Origin: Devosia indica
GTDB lineage: Bacteria; Pseudomonadota; Alphaproteobacteria; Rhizobiales; Devosiaceae
Direction: 5' to 3'
DNA length: 64,000 bases
Assembly: GCF_003056405.1 (NCBI RefSeq)
Contig: NZ_PYVZ01000013.1
Span: 62,001 to 126,000 of the forward strand
Position 1 is the first letter of the stretch. Every line of letters starts with the position of its first letter. A program made the translations under genes and the position numbers. The notes under the pieces are model-generated. The model saw only the letters and a list, made by a program, of their open reading frames with translations, did no database searches and had not been told where the DNA came from. This document shows, in pieces, positions 55,868 through 61,476 of this stretch.

Positions 55868-57553
55868 ATGAGCCGGATTGTCGGCCTCTTTATTTCGGGA
55901 ACACACCGGCGCAGTCTTCGACTGATCCTCTGGCTTATCTCGTTTGTGCTCATGCTCTCGGGTGCCGCCTGGTTTGTAGCCGAACAGGTGGCCATCAACA
56001 TGCGATCGGAGATCGCCACCACGCTGAGCAACTATGAACGCTTGCGTCACAATGTACTCTCGACCTTCGATGTCATGGATCAGCGGCTGGTAGCCGAACC
56101 CTGTTCGCCGGCATTTCTTGATGAAATGCGGCGCATCGCTTTCCTGCCCGACGGCATCAACGAACTGCTCTATGTCGAGAATGGCAATGTAATCTGCTCG
56201 GTCAATTCTGGCGTCTTCCCTCACCCTGCCAGCCTGGGGGCCGCGGATGTGGACGCCGCCAATCCATTCAATGTCTCATTCTGGCTGGATCGGGACCTGG
56301 GATTCCTCAGGCTCGAAGGCATGGCCGGAACCATTGCCCGCCGTGGCCAGTATGCGATGGTCATTCCGGGCCAGACCTTGCCCGCGACCGCCCCGCGCTG
56401 GATGGATCAGGAACTGGTCTTCAGAGCCATCGACTCCCGCTGGTGGCATCGCTCTGGCAGTCCCGGCATATATCTTGAGGCGCTGGAGCATTCGGGGCCA
56501 GCGCTCTCCAACCTGATGAAGGGAGCGTTCTATCAGCTATCTTGCGACACGGCAGGGGTCCACTGCATTGCCGGGCGCGCCAGCTTGATCAATCTGTTCA
56601 GCCTGGGCTGGGCTACCGTTGCTGTCATCCTGCTGGTCGCCGGCGTCCTGGCTGCTTGGGTGGCGCAGCAATTGCAGCGCATCATCGAACGCTACTGGTC
56701 ATTCGAGGCGCGTTTTCTGCGCCGGTTCGACAAGGGCTCGGTGGTCTGCGCTTACCAGCCTCTGCTCAATCTGAAAAAAGACCTGGCGACCGGGTGCGAA
56801 GTTCTGGCGCGCTGGCGTGATTTGGACGGCACCATCGTGCCGCCGGATCGTTTCTTGCCCATTGTTGAAAAGCGCGGTCTGACCGAGCGATTCACCGCCA
56901 TGGTGGTTGCCTATGCCTATGCAGACCTGACTGCCCATCTGCCCAGGGGTGTGCGCCTGCAGGTCAACTTCAACATCTTCCCGCAGGACCTCGATGCCGG
57001 CAAGCTGGTGCCGATTTTCGCCCCGTTCCTCACCGAGAATACCCCGTTCGACGTCGTGGTCGAAATCGTCGAAACCGCCGAGATCAGCCCCGAAACGGCA
57101 CAGGTCGAAATCGAGCGGCTGCGGGCCGCCGGGCTCAAGGTCTATATTGACGATTTCGGCGCGGGCTATTCCTCCATGCACAATCTGGCGGCGCTCTCGA
57201 TCGACGGGGTCAAGCTTGATCGGTCTTTCGCCATGGCCCCAGACCATTCGGTCATGTCTACCATGCTGACTCACGCCATCGACCTTGTGCAGGCCTCGGG
57301 CCGGTCGCTGGTGGTCGAAGGGGTGGAGACCACGGATCGCCTCAATGCCCTCAAGGCCACCGGCATGGTCGATTTTGCCCAGGGGTACGGCATCGCCCGG
57401 CCACTCCTGATCGAACCCTTTGTCGCCTATTTGGCCGATCACGGCCCGCCCATTGACGCGGCCGCGCCTCGTCGCCTGATCACATTTCCAAACTCGACGA
57501 AACTTGCACCAGAGCGCCGCGTTCTGCCTTCACACCCCAATCAAGGAGGATGA
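55868..57553 (+). CDS. CSS-motif EAL-domain cyclic di-GMP phosphodiesterase
   Basis: A 561-residue membrane enzyme. An N-terminal helix and one near residue 250 flank a periplasmic CSS-type redox sensor domain (cysteines in AEPCSPAFLDE and NVICSVNSG). The EAL domain (about 290-535) has GCEVLARW in place of EAL, VNFNIFPQDL, EIVETAEI, YIDDFGAGYSS, VKLDRSF, VVEGVET and QGYGIARP, so the catalytic set is complete. It should hydrolyse cyclic di-GMP in answer to periplasmic thiol state. ATG at 55868 follows GGAGGG. Confidence 0.92.
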   Translation: MSRIVGLFISGTHRRSLRLILWLISFVLMLSGAAWFVAEQVAINMRSEIATTLSNYERLRHNVLSTFDVMDQRLVAEPCSPAFLDEMRRIAFLPDGINELLYVENGNVICSVNSGVFPHPASLGAADVDAANPFNVSFWLDRDLGFLRLEGMAGTIARRGQYAMVIPGQTLPATAPRWMDQELVFRAIDSRWWHRSGSPGIYLEALEHSGPALSNLMKGAFYQLSCDTAGVHCIAGRASLINLFSLGWATVAVILLVAGVLAAWVAQQLQRIIERYWSFEARFLRRFDKGSVVCAYQPLLNLKKDLATGCEVLARWRDLDGTIVPPDRFLPIVEKRGLTERFTAMVVAYAYADLTAHLPRGVRLQVNFNIFPQDLDAGKLVPIFAPFLTENTPFDVVVEIVETAEISPETAQVEIERLRAAGLKVYIDDFGAGYSSMHNLAALSIDGVKLDRSFAMAPDHSVMSTMLTHAIDLVQASGRSLVVEGVETTDRLNALKATGMVDFAQGYGIARPLLIEPFVAYLADHGPPIDAAAPRRLITFPNSTKLAPERRVLPSHPNQGG

Positions 57554-57554
57554 A

Positions 57555-57944
57555 ATGGCCTATGATGACAAGCGCATCGACACCGCCGACGTCAAGGAAA
57601 CCCACGATCTGATCGCTTCGGACAAGGTCGAGGGTACCAAGGTCTACGACCCGAACGGTGACCATATCGGCTCCATCGAGCGCATTCTGGTCGAAAAGCG
57701 CGGCGGCAAGGTCTCCTATGCCGTTCTCAGCTTTGGCGGCTTCCTGGGCATCGGCCACGACCATTATCCATTGCCCTGGTCCAAGCTGGACTACGACGAA
57801 AATCTCGGCGGTTACCGCGTCGATATCACCAAGGACCAGCTCGAAGGCGCCCCGCGCTTCGAGGGCGAGGACGACAGTTTCTGGACGGCCGAAAATGGGC
57901 GCCGTGTTCATGACTACTATGGCGTGGCCCCCTACTGGATCTGA
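57555..57944 (+). CDS. PRC-barrel domain protein
   Basis: A 129-residue soluble protein with one PRC-barrel (about 12-85: KVYDPNGDHIGSIERILVEK, SYAVLSFGGFLGIGHDHYPL). The family ranges from photosynthetic H subunits to stress and RNA-processing proteins; the role here is unknown. It starts one base after the phosphodiesterase stop, with AAGGAGGATG as ribosome site inside the upstream gene. Confidence 0.88.
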   Translation: MAYDDKRIDTADVKETHDLIASDKVEGTKVYDPNGDHIGSIERILVEKRGGKVSYAVLSFGGFLGIGHDHYPLPWSKLDYDENLGGYRVDITKDQLEGAPRFEGEDDSFWTAENGRRVHDYYGVAPYWI

Positions 57945-57982
57945 TCCAGACACCGATTTTTCAATGACCAAGTAATTGCAAG

Positions 57983-58014
57983 CCGACGCCGGATTTTCCT
58001 GGCGTCGGTTTTTT
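57983..58014 (+). terminator. Strong rho-independent terminator after the PRC-barrel gene
   Basis: CCGACGCC pairs with GGCGTCGG over a ten-base loop and runs directly into TTTTTT. It isolates the buf operon from the phosphodiesterase/PRC-barrel unit. Confidence 0.92.
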
Positions 58015-58035
58015 CGTTCACGAGCGCGTGATCGT

Positions 58036-58060
58036 GTAACGCCTCTGGCCGGGCAGCGAA
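58036..58060 (+). promoter_or_regulatory. Candidate ECF-sigma promoter of the buf operon
   Basis: GTAACG (58036-58041) and CGAA (58057-58060) are 15 bases apart, lying between the upstream terminator and the bufA start at 58107. The pattern resembles ECF-type promoters (GTAAC / CGA) such as those I recall for sigma-F-controlled bufferin genes in Caulobacter. No sigma-factor gene is in this window. Inference only. Confidence 0.4.
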
Positions 58061-58106
58061 TGTCGCTGTGTTGGAACCAAACGGTTCCCCACCAGAGGAG
58101 AAACCC

Positions 58107-58415
58107 ATGAACCGCCTGACTACCTTTGCCCTTGCCGCCTCGCTGACTGCCGCCCTGGGTGGCACCGCCATTGCCCAGGATGCCATGGGCGGCGACGCCA
58201 TGGCCGCAACCGAAAAGTGCTATGGTGTTGCCCTTGCCGGCGCCAATGACTGCGCCGCCGGTCCCGGCACCACCTGCGCCGGCACCTCCACCATCGACTA
58301 CCAGGGCAATGCCTGGAAAGCCGTGCCTGCCGGCACCTGCGAAACCATGATGATCGAGGGAGATCGCATGGGCTCGCTAGAGCCGCTCGACCGCGATCTC
58401 CCCATGGCTAGCTGA
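58107..58415 (+). CDS. bufA: Bufferin-type precursor peptide (DUF2282, BufA1-like)
   Basis: A 102-residue exported precursor. Signal peptide [20 protein letters not shown] ends near AIA (about residue 23), so the mature peptide is about 79 residues and has exactly four cysteines (38, 49, 57, 78) in EKCYGVA, NDCAAG, TTCAG and GTCETM, matching the DUF2282 family. In this family the MNIO enzyme is reported to modify cysteines, giving a periplasmic copper-binding peptide. GAGGAGAAA ribosome site. First gene of a four-gene operon with all expected partners. Confidence 0.9.
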
Positions 58416-58429
58416 TTGGAGCCAACCCC

Positions 58430-58456
58430 CGGGAGGCTTACGAGCCTCCCGCCTTT
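58430..58456 (+). terminator. Perfect hairpin between bufA and bufB (attenuator candidate)
   Basis: CGGGAGGCT pairs with AGCCTCCCG around a TACG tetraloop, then CCTTTCCC. It starts 15 bases after the bufA stop and ends about 20 bases before the bufB start. It may partly terminate or protect the bufA message, keeping precursor ahead of enzyme. Confidence 0.65.
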
Positions 58457-58472
58457 CCCAAGGGAGGCATCC

Positions 58473-59330
58473 ATGCCCTTTGACACTTTGCCAGCGCGCC
58501 CCGGCCTGGGCCTGAAGCCACAGCACTATGCCCAGATCCTCGCCAACAAGCCCGATCTCGGCTTTTTCGAGGTGCATGCGGAAAACTATATGGGCGAGGG
58601 TGGCCCGCCCCATCGCTATCTGGCCGCCATCTGTGAAAACTATCCGCTCTCGCTGCACGGCGTCGGCCTGTCGATCGGCGGCGAAGCGCCGCTTGATCGC
58701 GATCATCTCAAACGTCTGCGTGCCCTGGTTGAGCGCTACCAGCCCGCTTCTTTTTCCGAGCATCTGGCCTGGTCCAGCCATGACGAAGGCTATCTAAACG
58801 ACCTGCTGCCCGTGCCCTACACGCCCCAGACGCTGGATCGGGTCGTGTCCCATGTGGATGAGGTGCAGCAGGTCCTTGGCCGCCGCATGCTGCTCGAAAA
58901 CCCCTCGACCTATGTCCTGTTCGAAGAAAGCACTATCGAGGAAGTCGATTTCCTCGCCGCCATCGCCGACCGGACCGGTTGCGGCCTGCTTCTCGACGTC
59001 AACAATGTTATGGTCTCAGCCGTCAATCACCGGCTCGATCCGGTGGCCTATATCGACCGCTTTCCGGTGCACCATGTGGGAGAAATTCATCTTGCCGGCT
59101 ATGATGAAACCACCGATGACGCTGGCGAACGCTTGTTGATCGATGCGCATGGCAGCCGGGTGCGCCCCGACGTGTTCGAACGCTACCGCCACACCATCAT
59201 CCGCACGGGTGCCCTGCCGACCCTGATCGAATGGGACAACAACGTACCCGCCTTCGATGTGTTGATGGACGAGGTTCGCCTTGTGGGTGAGGTGCTCGAT
59301 GGCACGCTCAACCGGAGATTGGCATCGTGA
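58473..59330 (+). CDS. bufB: MNIO-family (DUF692) maturation oxidase, BufB-like
   Basis: A 285-residue TIM-barrel enzyme of the multinuclear non-haem iron oxidase family. Conserved segments with likely iron ligands: FFEVHAENY near residue 31, LSLHGVGLS near 61, FSEHLAWSS near 95, LENPSTYV near 140, LLLDVNNV near 170, GEIHLAGY near 200, DAHGSRV and LIEWDNN near 250. It is inferred to modify cysteines of BufA using O2. ATG at 58473 follows GGGAGG. Its stop overlaps the bufC GTG start. Confidence 0.93.
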   Translation: MPFDTLPARPGLGLKPQHYAQILANKPDLGFFEVHAENYMGEGGPPHRYLAAICENYPLSLHGVGLSIGGEAPLDRDHLKRLRALVERYQPASFSEHLAWSSHDEGYLNDLLPVPYTPQTLDRVVSHVDEVQQVLGRRMLLENPSTYVLFEESTIEEVDFLAAIADRTGCGLLLDVNNVMVSAVNHRLDPVAYIDRFPVHHVGEIHLAGYDETTDDAGERLLIDAHGSRVRPDVFERYRHTIIRTGALPTLIEWDNNVPAFDVLMDEVRLVGEVLDGTLNRRLAS

Positions 59331-60091
59331 CCAGTCAGAGCCCGTTCACCCGGGCCTTGACCGATCCCGCCCAGCCGGTGCCGGCCGGACTGGTTTCGCC
59401 GCGTGGCACTGCGGACAGCAAGCGTTTCGCGGTCTATCGCAACAATGTGCATGTCAGCCTGGTTGGTGCCCTCGCCGCCCGCTTCCCGGTGACCCGCCAG
59501 TTGGTCGGGGAAGAGTTCTTCACCGGCATGGCAAGGCTCTATGTTGCGCAGACCAAGCCCAAGGGTCCGGTTCTGATCCACTATGGCGACAGTTTCCCCG
59601 ATTTCGTGGCGCAGTTTCCGCCCGCTTCGGGATTGCCCTACCTGCCCGATCTGGCCCGGCTCGAGGCGGCCTGGACCGAGGCCTATAACGCGGCCGATGC
59701 CATAGCCCTTGCTCCGGCCGATCTGAGTACGATTGCCGGTGATGCGCTGGCCTCGCTCGATCTGACACTGGCGCCGTCCACGCGCCTGGTGCGCTCTGGC
59801 TTTCCGGTCGGCACGCTCTGGTCTGCCCACCAGACGACGCCGGTCAGCATTCCGGCACTATCGGGCAGCGAATGCGTGCTGCTCACGCGGCCACAAGCCC
59901 ATGTCCGCCTGACGATCATTCCACCCGCCGCCTGCGCGTTTCTCGAGGCGATAGGGCAGGGCCGAACTCTGGGCCAGGCAGCCGAAGCCGTCCTGACCGT
60001 TTTTCCAGATTTTGATCCCGGCGCCGCTCTGGTGGGGCTGGCCGGACTGGGCGCCTTTACGACCCTGACCAAGGAGCTTGCTGATGTTTGA
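59327..60091 (+). CDS. bufC: DUF2063 (BufC-like) partner protein
   Basis: A 254-residue protein. The N-terminal DUF2063 domain (about 5-95) has VYRNNVHVSLVGALAARFPV near residue 36. The family is the usual partner of DUF692 enzymes and is thought to bind the precursor or the enzyme. Starts with GTG overlapping the bufB stop by four bases, and overlaps the doxX start by eight bases. Confidence 0.88.
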   Translation: MTSQSPFTRALTDPAQPVPAGLVSPRGTADSKRFAVYRNNVHVSLVGALAARFPVTRQLVGEEFFTGMARLYVAQTKPKGPVLIHYGDSFPDFVAQFPPASGLPYLPDLARLEAAWTEAYNAADAIALAPADLSTIAGDALASLDLTLAPSTRLVRSGFPVGTLWSAHQTTPVSIPALSGSECVLLTRPQAHVRLTIIPPAACAFLEAIGQGRTLGQAAEAVLTVFPDFDPGAALVGLAGLGAFTTLTKELADV

Positions 60092-60584
60092 TCGCGCCAT
60101 TGCCCTCTGGAGCCGGCTCGATATCGGGCTGGCCGCAGTCCCGGCCGCTCTCCCGCTCTTGGCCCTGCGCGTCGCGCTGGCCATTCCGTTCTGGCGTTCG
60201 GGCCTGACCAAGTGGGACGGCTTTCTCAATCTCTCGACCGGCGCCCGCTATCTCTTCGAGCAGGAGTTCAAGCTGCACATTTTCGGGCAGGCCTTCGCCT
60301 ATCCCGCGCCGCTGACCATGGCATTCCTGGCCGGTCTGGGTGAGATCATCCTGCCCATCCTGCTGGTGCTGGGCCTGGGCACGCGCTTCGCCGCGCTCGG
60401 TATTCTGGCCATGACCATTATCATCCAGCTCACTGTGCCCGATGGCCTGATCAATTTCCACCTGCCCTGGTTCGCCATGGCCCTGGCCCTGCTGGTCTAT
60501 GGTGGGGGCATGCTTTCGGCCGATCGCCTGCTGGGCGGCCTTTTCGGCCAGCGGGTCAAGGGGTCTGCACACCCCGCGCGGTGA
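60084..60584 (+). CDS. bufD: DoxX-family membrane protein (BufD-like)
   Basis: A 166-residue inner-membrane protein with four helices and the DoxX signature ALRVALAIPFWRSGLTKWDG near residue 28 and GLGEIILPILLVLGLGTRFA near 88. DoxX-like proteins are usual fourth members of bufferin operons and may pass electrons or handle oxygen or copper at the membrane; role unproven. ATG at 60084 overlaps bufC. The 3' end overlaps the convergent lactonase gene by 29 bases. Confidence 0.85.
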   Translation: MFDRAIALWSRLDIGLAAVPAALPLLALRVALAIPFWRSGLTKWDGFLNLSTGARYLFEQEFKLHIFGQAFAYPAPLTMAFLAGLGEIILPILLVLGLGTRFAALGILAMTIIIQLTVPDGLINFHLPWFAMALALLVYGGGMLSADRLLGGLFGQRVKGSAHPAR

Positions 60585-61476
60585 CATAGAGCGCATAGAG
60601 CGAGGTGGTGGCGGTGATGAAAAGCCGGTTCCGCCTCGGTCCGCCAAAAGTCAGGTTCGAGACCGTCTGCGGCACAAAGATCCTGCCGCATAGCTTGCCC
60701 GCGTTGTCGAACACCTGCACGCCGTCCGCAGCCGAACACCACACCCAGCCGTCGGTGTCCACCCGAAAACCGTCGGGAATGCCATTGTCGATCACTGCAA
60801 ATGGTCCCAGGTCCCGCAGGGCCGGTCCGCTGGCTTCAACCGCAAAAGCGCGGATATGGCGCGGCACATCGGGATCATGGCTGGCACCGGAATCGGCGAC
60901 ATAGAGCACGCTTTCGTCGGGCGAAAAGGCCAGACCATTGGGCTGCACGAAGTCATCCACCATCAGCCTGACCTCGCCACTCTGTGCATCGATCCGGTAG
61001 ACCCCATGCACTGCCTGTTCAGGTTGGCACTGATACCCCTCATAATCGGACAGGATGCCGTAGCTCGGATCGGTGAACCAGATCGAGCCATCCGACTTGA
61101 CCACCACATCATTGGGCGAGTTCAGCCTTTTGCCCTCAAAACTGTCGGCCAGCACCGTGATCGTGCCGTCGATCTCGGTCCGCGTCACCCGCCGCGGCCC
61201 ATGCTCGCAGGAAATCAGCCGGCCCTGGCGGTCGCGGGTATGCCCATTGGCAAAATTTGATGGTTCGGCATAGACGCTGACCGAATTGTCGCTGGGCAGA
61301 TAGCGCAGTACCCGCTGATTGGGGATGTCGGAAAAATAAAGCGCATCATGGTCTGAGAACCACACCGGCCCCTCGGCCCATCGGCACCCGGTGTGCAGCT
61401 CTTCCAATTGCGCACTGCCCACGATCTTGTGCGCGAATCGCGGATCGATAATCTCGTAAAGCCCCTGCTCGGCCAT
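60556..61476 (-). CDS. SMP-30/gluconolactonase-family protein
   Basis: A 306-residue six-bladed beta-propeller. Metal and active-site residues: glutamate in RWAEGPVW near residue 32, LNSPNDVVV near 105, VQPNGLAFSPDE near 165, and the aspartate in LYVADSG near 180. It probably opens a sugar lactone; substrate unknown. ATG at 61476 (MAEQGLYEIIDPR). Overlaps the end of bufD. Two operator-like repeats lie about 100 and 190 bases upstream. Confidence 0.88.
   Translation of the reverse strand: MAEQGLYEIIDPRFAHKIVGSAQLEELHTGCRWAEGPVWFSDHDALYFSDIPNQRVLRYLPSDNSVSVYAEPSNFANGHTRDRQGRLISCEHGPRRVTRTEIDGTITVLADSFEGKRLNSPNDVVVKSDGSIWFTDPSYGILSDYEGYQCQPEQAVHGVYRIDAQSGEVRLMVDDFVQPNGLAFSPDESVLYVADSGASHDPDVPRHIRAFAVEASGPALRDLGPFAVIDNGIPDGFRVDTDGWVWCSAADGVQVFDNAGKLCGRIFVPQTVSNLTFGGPRRNRLFITATTSLYALYVTARGVQTP

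Follow-up and report, generated by a model that had tools for sequence, protein, structure and literature searches.

In Caulobacter, the SigF regulon, which includes a bufferin cluster together with MsrPQ, is induced by copper, and a sigF::Tn5 mutant is copper-sensitive (PMC8224329). The chemistry of Caulobacter bufferin 1 is described, and copper binding is reported for bufferin-type peptides, in two papers (PMC12452194, PMC13097082). According to the former, bufferin precursors bear Sec signal peptides and bufferins sequester periplasmic copper, while in Buf1 the central cysteines are converted to thiooxazoles and the first and last cysteines form a disulphide (PMC12452194). Thousands of Buf1 and Buf2 precursors were reported in a 2025 survey. 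The consensus of Caulobacter SigF is GTAACC-N16-CGAA (PMC3511200), the GTAAC type being general to ECF16 sigma factors. In Brucella and Bradyrhizobium, Msr genes are under the control of ECF16 systems that HOCl or H2O2 triggers; since neither H2O2 nor Cd nor chromate induces the S. meliloti RpoE7 target (PMC6180224), the inducer can vary among species.

The window analysed here is a stretch of 64,000 nucleotides from Devosia indica. Its segment 58036–60584 is in all probability a Buf1-type bufferin operon, switched on by an unlinked SigF-like ECF16 sigma factor, with a peptide that buffers copper.

Gene content of the Devosia buf operon

The features of the locus are as follows.

57980–58011, + strand: terminator-like hairpin with T-run, 3' of the upstream PRC-barrel gene (consensus scan)
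58036–58060, + strand: predicted ECF16/SigF promoter GTAAC-N16-CGAA (-35 at 58036–58040, -10 at 58057–58060)
58107–58415, + strand: bufA, DUF2282 bufferin precursor, 102 aa (PF10048, 1.3e-24, 86.3 vs 22.4 bits)
58430–58451, + strand: 9-bp hairpin CGGGAGGCT-TACG-AGCCTCCCG in the bufA–bufB gap (z about -2.8 against dinucleotide shuffles)
58473–59330, + strand: bufB, MNIO (DUF692) bufferin maturase, 285 aa (PF05114, 9.3e-105; NF050167, 386.4 vs cut-off 310 bits)
59327–60091, + strand: bufC, DUF2063 partner protein (PME-type 1), 254 aa, GTG start (PF09836, 1.4e-24)
60084–60584, + strand: bufD, DoxX-family membrane protein, 166 aa (PF07681, 5.1e-17)

The first-pass annotation had proposed a complete four-gene bufferin-type operon with overlaps of four and eight bases among its last three genes. 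All four genes were indeed found on the + strand, and the overlaps lie at 59327–59330 (bufB/bufC) and 60084–60091 (bufC/DoxX gene). The DUF2282, DUF692, DUF2063 and DoxX profiles named in that annotation all match above the Pfam gathering scores, with 350 vs 25 bits for the MNIO (MbnB_TglH_ChrH), 87 vs 27 for DUF2063 and 63 vs 24 for DoxX in addition to the DUF2282 score listed above. The order bufA-bufB-bufC followed by the DoxX gene is that of the published Buf1 cluster (PMC12452194), and this order, the NF050167 match and the DUF2282 score support reading the MNIO and DUF2282 genes as a bufferin pathway. The description of a whole RiPP pathway is supported, but NCBI has already given the family a name, so that the phrase "hidden under DUF names" no longer applies. 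DUF2282 and MNIO genes are both single-copy in the 3.95-Mb genome and confined to the buf locus, as judged from a genome profile search.

The hairpin at 57980–58011 is a candidate boundary that marks the operon as its own transcription unit. No copper gene was recognised in the flanks, which hold EAL-type, PRC-barrel and SMP-30/gluconolactonase-like genes; an Rfam search of 57400–61200 gave no match, and PHROGs returned nothing for BufA or BufB and thus no phage link.

BufA possesses the characteristics of a secreted four-cysteine DUF2282 precursor that had been ascribed to it, with cysteines at positions 38, 49, 57 and 78 and a hydrophobic, signal-like N-terminus with AxA at residues 21–23, the signal peptide being judged by eye. 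The four-cysteine pattern recurs across about 100 relatives, and EGKCG repeats are absent from the precursor. On the strength of the published Buf1 cysteine pattern, modification is predicted at Cys49 and Cys57 and a disulphide between Cys38 and Cys78. A match of BufA to the MXKDX methionine-rich peptides was weak (19.3 bits vs a cut-off of 41), spanned the signal-peptide region (residues 2–33) and was discarded.

BufB passes the NCBIfam equivalog model for bufferin maturases (NF050167) and falls below those for other MNIO enzymes, namely HvfB (244 vs 360 bits) and MbnB (59 vs 325 bits), with ApyH and ChrH also missed. An alignment with 111 relatives demonstrated that residues His62, His97, Glu142, Asp175, Asn178, His206, Asp224 and His226 are invariant, and these are the putative iron/metal ligands. 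In HvfB, residues Asn175, Asp242 and His244 are essential for thiooxazole formation; judged by motif context, Asn178, Asp224 and His226 of BufB appear to be their counterparts.

The identities of BufC and the DoxX protein rest on Pfam domains and, for BufC, also on its predicted fold, both proteins being below the NCBIfam equivalog cut-offs for HvfC (55 vs 142 bits) and HvfX (54 vs 80 bits), as might be expected of Buf1 rather than Hvf proteins. An AlphaFold2 model of BufC (pLDDT 92.7), for which the input was 46 window and locus sequences, matches the MNIO partner fold of TglI (8hi7, 8hci) and NGO1945 (3dee), and the fit to the two-domain proteins TglI and 3dee spans most of the length of BufC. 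Going by this model, BufC is a DUF2063 partner protein with a predicted C-terminal RRE-type domain. A phmmer search of the PDB with BufC returned no sequence match.

As a system the buf operon is ordinary, and across Devosia it is patchy: of the 37 Devosia genomes searched, 13 have an NF050167 match, and overall 28 of 61 relatives do. A scan of the genome collection yielded at least 589 confirmed relatives, 80 of which, from Rhizobium, Mesorhizobium, Pseudomonas, Paraburkholderia and others, were kept. Among the matches listed, the closest named BufB is that of D. marina (94% identity), and BufB is 94% and 88% identical to its two closest named Devosia relatives, with which the gene order is shared. 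Matches to a literature search for Devosia and bufferin apparently all concerned the word "buffering".

Two observations concern variant loci. D. marina carries a second buf copy (G010:C10) beside nrsF, with an in-frame TGA in bufB and neither a recognisable sigF nor the promoter motif; it looks like a decaying duplicate, an operon of the window type being intact in the same genome. In eight loci from Caballeronia, Paraburkholderia, Ancylobacter and Rhizobium-related bacteria, bufB and bufC are separated by roughly 500–1000 bases, a gap that probably holds an extra gene, e.g. of the published adjamnio-VI type.

The upstream promoter motif and the predicted SigF regulon

The start given for the operon in the first-pass annotation, 58036, is where the -35 element of the predicted promoter begins; the motif ends 46 bases 5' of the bufA start codon, at 58107. 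The exact GTAAC-N16-CGAA sequence occurs four times in the whole genome, the sole intergenic occurrence being the bufA copy, and no sigma-70-type promoter was found by a consensus scan. In 28 DUF2282-bearing genomes the motif, with N16 or N17, precedes bufA in 15 of the 15 that encode NrsF, 13 of them from one genus, and is missing from this position in all 13 without NrsF. The corresponding Fisher p of 2.7e-8 would apply if the genomes were independent, which shared ancestry rules out; outside Devosia the counts are 2/2 vs 0/13 (p 0.0095). With a GTAAC-N16/17-CGAA promoter and an NrsF-type anti-sigma factor in the genome, the operon is predicted to belong to the ECF16 (SigF/NrsF) regulon.

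The single sigF-nrsF pair of the genome is located on another contig (locus G000:C12:252300-258000). Its NrsF has cysteines at positions 129 and 179; in Bradyrhizobium OsrA, cysteines C129 and C179 were shown to matter, and both are kept in Brucella AbcS. Six of the 14 exact N16/N17 sites in the genome precede bufA, sigF, a divergent cytochrome b561/molybdopterin oxidoreductase pair, msrA, msrB and a second msrB, and most sites outside these six grouped promoters are intragenic. The motif is positioned 49 bases 5' of the msrA start and 184 bases 5' of the signal-bearing msrB, while the site of the second msrB was assigned by comparing motif and gene coordinates. A further motif, at G000:C45:166358-166383 on the - strand, lies some 370 bases 5' of a sterol-desaturase-like frame.

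The same association is seen at the repair genes of Devosia, the D. indica genome being counted throughout: the motif is found 5' of msrA in 16/24 genomes with NrsF vs 0/6 without, 5' of msrB in 21/23 vs 0/7, and 5' of the second msrB in 20/30 vs 0/6. Many Devosia genomes without a buf operon retain the motif at their msr genes. The sharing of one motif by bufA, sigF, the three msr genes and the b561/molybdo-oxidoreductase pair, together with the unlinked position of sigF-nrsF, therefore leads to the prediction of a trans-acting SigF regulon, in which the buf operon would be activated alongside methionine-sulfoxide repair.

A hairpin between bufA and bufB

The two genes lie 57 bases apart, and this spacer contains the hairpin listed above, the loop of which is TACG. 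Homologous spacers of about 40–120 bases were compared, 74 of them distinct, and 51 of these 74 have a stem of 9 bp or more with a loop of 3–8 bases, against a mean of 2.9 and a maximum of 8 in 200 trials of dinucleotide shuffling; the spacers come from related sequences and are hence less than independent. The stem sequences vary by lineage, so it is the structure and not the sequence that is kept. Because no T-run follows the stem, the hairpin is likelier to be an mRNA stabiliser or a partial attenuator than a terminator. No hairpin or stem-loop is mentioned in the bufferin papers compared, and the element is apparently new to the literature.

Function of the operon and comparison with known systems

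By analogy with homologous systems, the operon may be expected to work as follows, and it is from these homologues that modification, export and copper binding of the peptide, as well as the SigF dependence of the operon, are inferred for D. indica. NrsF would sense metal or thiol/oxidative stress at the envelope and release the SigF-like ECF16 sigma factor encoded elsewhere, and this factor would drive bufABCD through the 58036 promoter. Synthesised with its signal peptide, BufA would be presented by BufC to the iron enzyme BufB in the cytoplasm, where Cys49 and Cys57 would be oxidised to 5-thiooxazoles; after export of the modified peptide by Sec, the Cys38–Cys78 disulphide would form, and the periplasmic peptide would buffer excess copper. 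More speculatively, the DoxX protein probably has a part in membrane redox handling, and the hairpin 3' of bufA probably protects the bufA message, or partly separates it from the remainder, so that more precursor than enzyme would be made.

What the sequence itself shows is the gene identities and their order, the conservation of the metal ligands, the BufC fold, the promoter motif with its NrsF co-occurrence and the hairpin. BufB does match the HvfB and MbnB models as well, which could indicate a cluster of the Hvf/oxazolin or methanobactin type, but it falls well short of both cut-offs while passing NF050167, and the DUF2282 precursor is without the EGKCG repeats; such an identity is effectively ruled out by the model cut-offs and is regarded as highly improbable. 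Equally improbable is an operon that has decayed and lost its function. The second D. marina copy, seemingly in decay, indicates that loss happens in the genus, but all four frames of D. indica are intact, its catalytic residues and promoter are conserved, and BufB retains its high identity to the relatives listed; decay was thus rejected on the intact frames and ligands.

Bufferin chemistry could be retained with a main role other than copper, as an arm of a regulon for envelope sulphur-oxidation stress (reactive chlorine or oxygen), in which the modified peptide would serve as a sacrificial or redox-active thiol, its binding of copper being secondary. In D. indica the bufA motif also precedes the three msr genes and the b561/molybdo-oxidoreductase pair, occurring in relatives only with nrsF, and the ECF16 systems of Brucella and Bradyrhizobium answer HOCl or H2O2. 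Against this stand the copper binding reported for bufferin-type peptides (PMC12452194, PMC13097082) and the Caulobacter regulon, which joins bufferin and MsrPQ, is copper-induced and on loss confers copper sensitivity (PMC8224329). From that precedent the SigF-type promoter lends indirect support to a copper role in D. indica, and a main role apart from copper is considered unlikely. Reactive chlorine or oxygen species are nevertheless a live alternative as inducer of the buf operon, since the apparent regulon also repairs oxidised methionine. Copper buffering by a Buf1-type bufferin under SigF-like control is the reading preferred.

A bolder combination is put forward tentatively, being judged slightly more doubtful than probable: that the Devosia bufferin has been drawn into the regulon of an unlinked ECF16 sigma factor, the core of which is methionine-sulfoxide repair, and that the undescribed bufA–bufB hairpin is general to bufferin operons and sets the ratio of precursor to enzyme. 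If true, copper buffering and the repair of oxidised proteins would form one envelope response in Devosia, and the conserved hairpin could account for the production of more substrate than enzyme from bufferin operons. The operon itself is of a known kind and represents one more host for a large, recently named family; the additions are modest, comprising the conserved hairpin and a SigF regulon predicted to act in trans and to link copper buffering with methionine-sulfoxide repair.

Among described systems, Hvf (oxazolin) of Haemophilus influenzae shares the MNIO, a DUF2063-type partner and the DoxX-like HvfX, and yields a thiooxazole product (PMC13419390), but its precursor has EGKCG repeats, and BufB, BufC and BufD of D. 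indica are below the Hvf equivalog cut-offs. The gig operon, found in Cupriavidus metallidurans and Legionella and inducible with Au, Ag or Cu, has been identified as the same cluster (PMC8224329), although the hosts differ and in C. metallidurans there is no clear copper phenotype. EcfF-OsrA of Bradyrhizobium japonicum, also ECF16, resembles the D. indica pair in its GTAAC-type promoter and in C129/C179 of the anti-sigma factor, and its regulon controls methionine sulfoxide reductases; in contrast to D. indica, bufferin genes are not named among its targets in the available part of the report (PMC3420878). S. meliloti SMb20530-20527 with RpoE7-EcfR7 (PMC6180224) likewise combines DUF692 and DUF2063 genes with an ECF16 sigma factor, and the buf promoter listed there is of the same kind, GTAAC-N17-CGAA by our own count, but the sigma factor genes are numbered beside the operon. 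The closest counterpart is Buf1 of Caulobacter vibrioides (CCNA_03363-03366 / CC3254-CC3257), in which DUF2282, MNIO, DUF2063 and DoxX genes follow in identical order, the promoter is of the GTAAC-N16-CGAA type and the genome encodes SigF-NrsF. There, sigF and nrsF (CC3252-CC3253) are numbered adjacent to the operon and a second DUF2282 operon (CC2907-2905) is present, whereas in D. indica the pair lies on another contig and the genome has one such operon.
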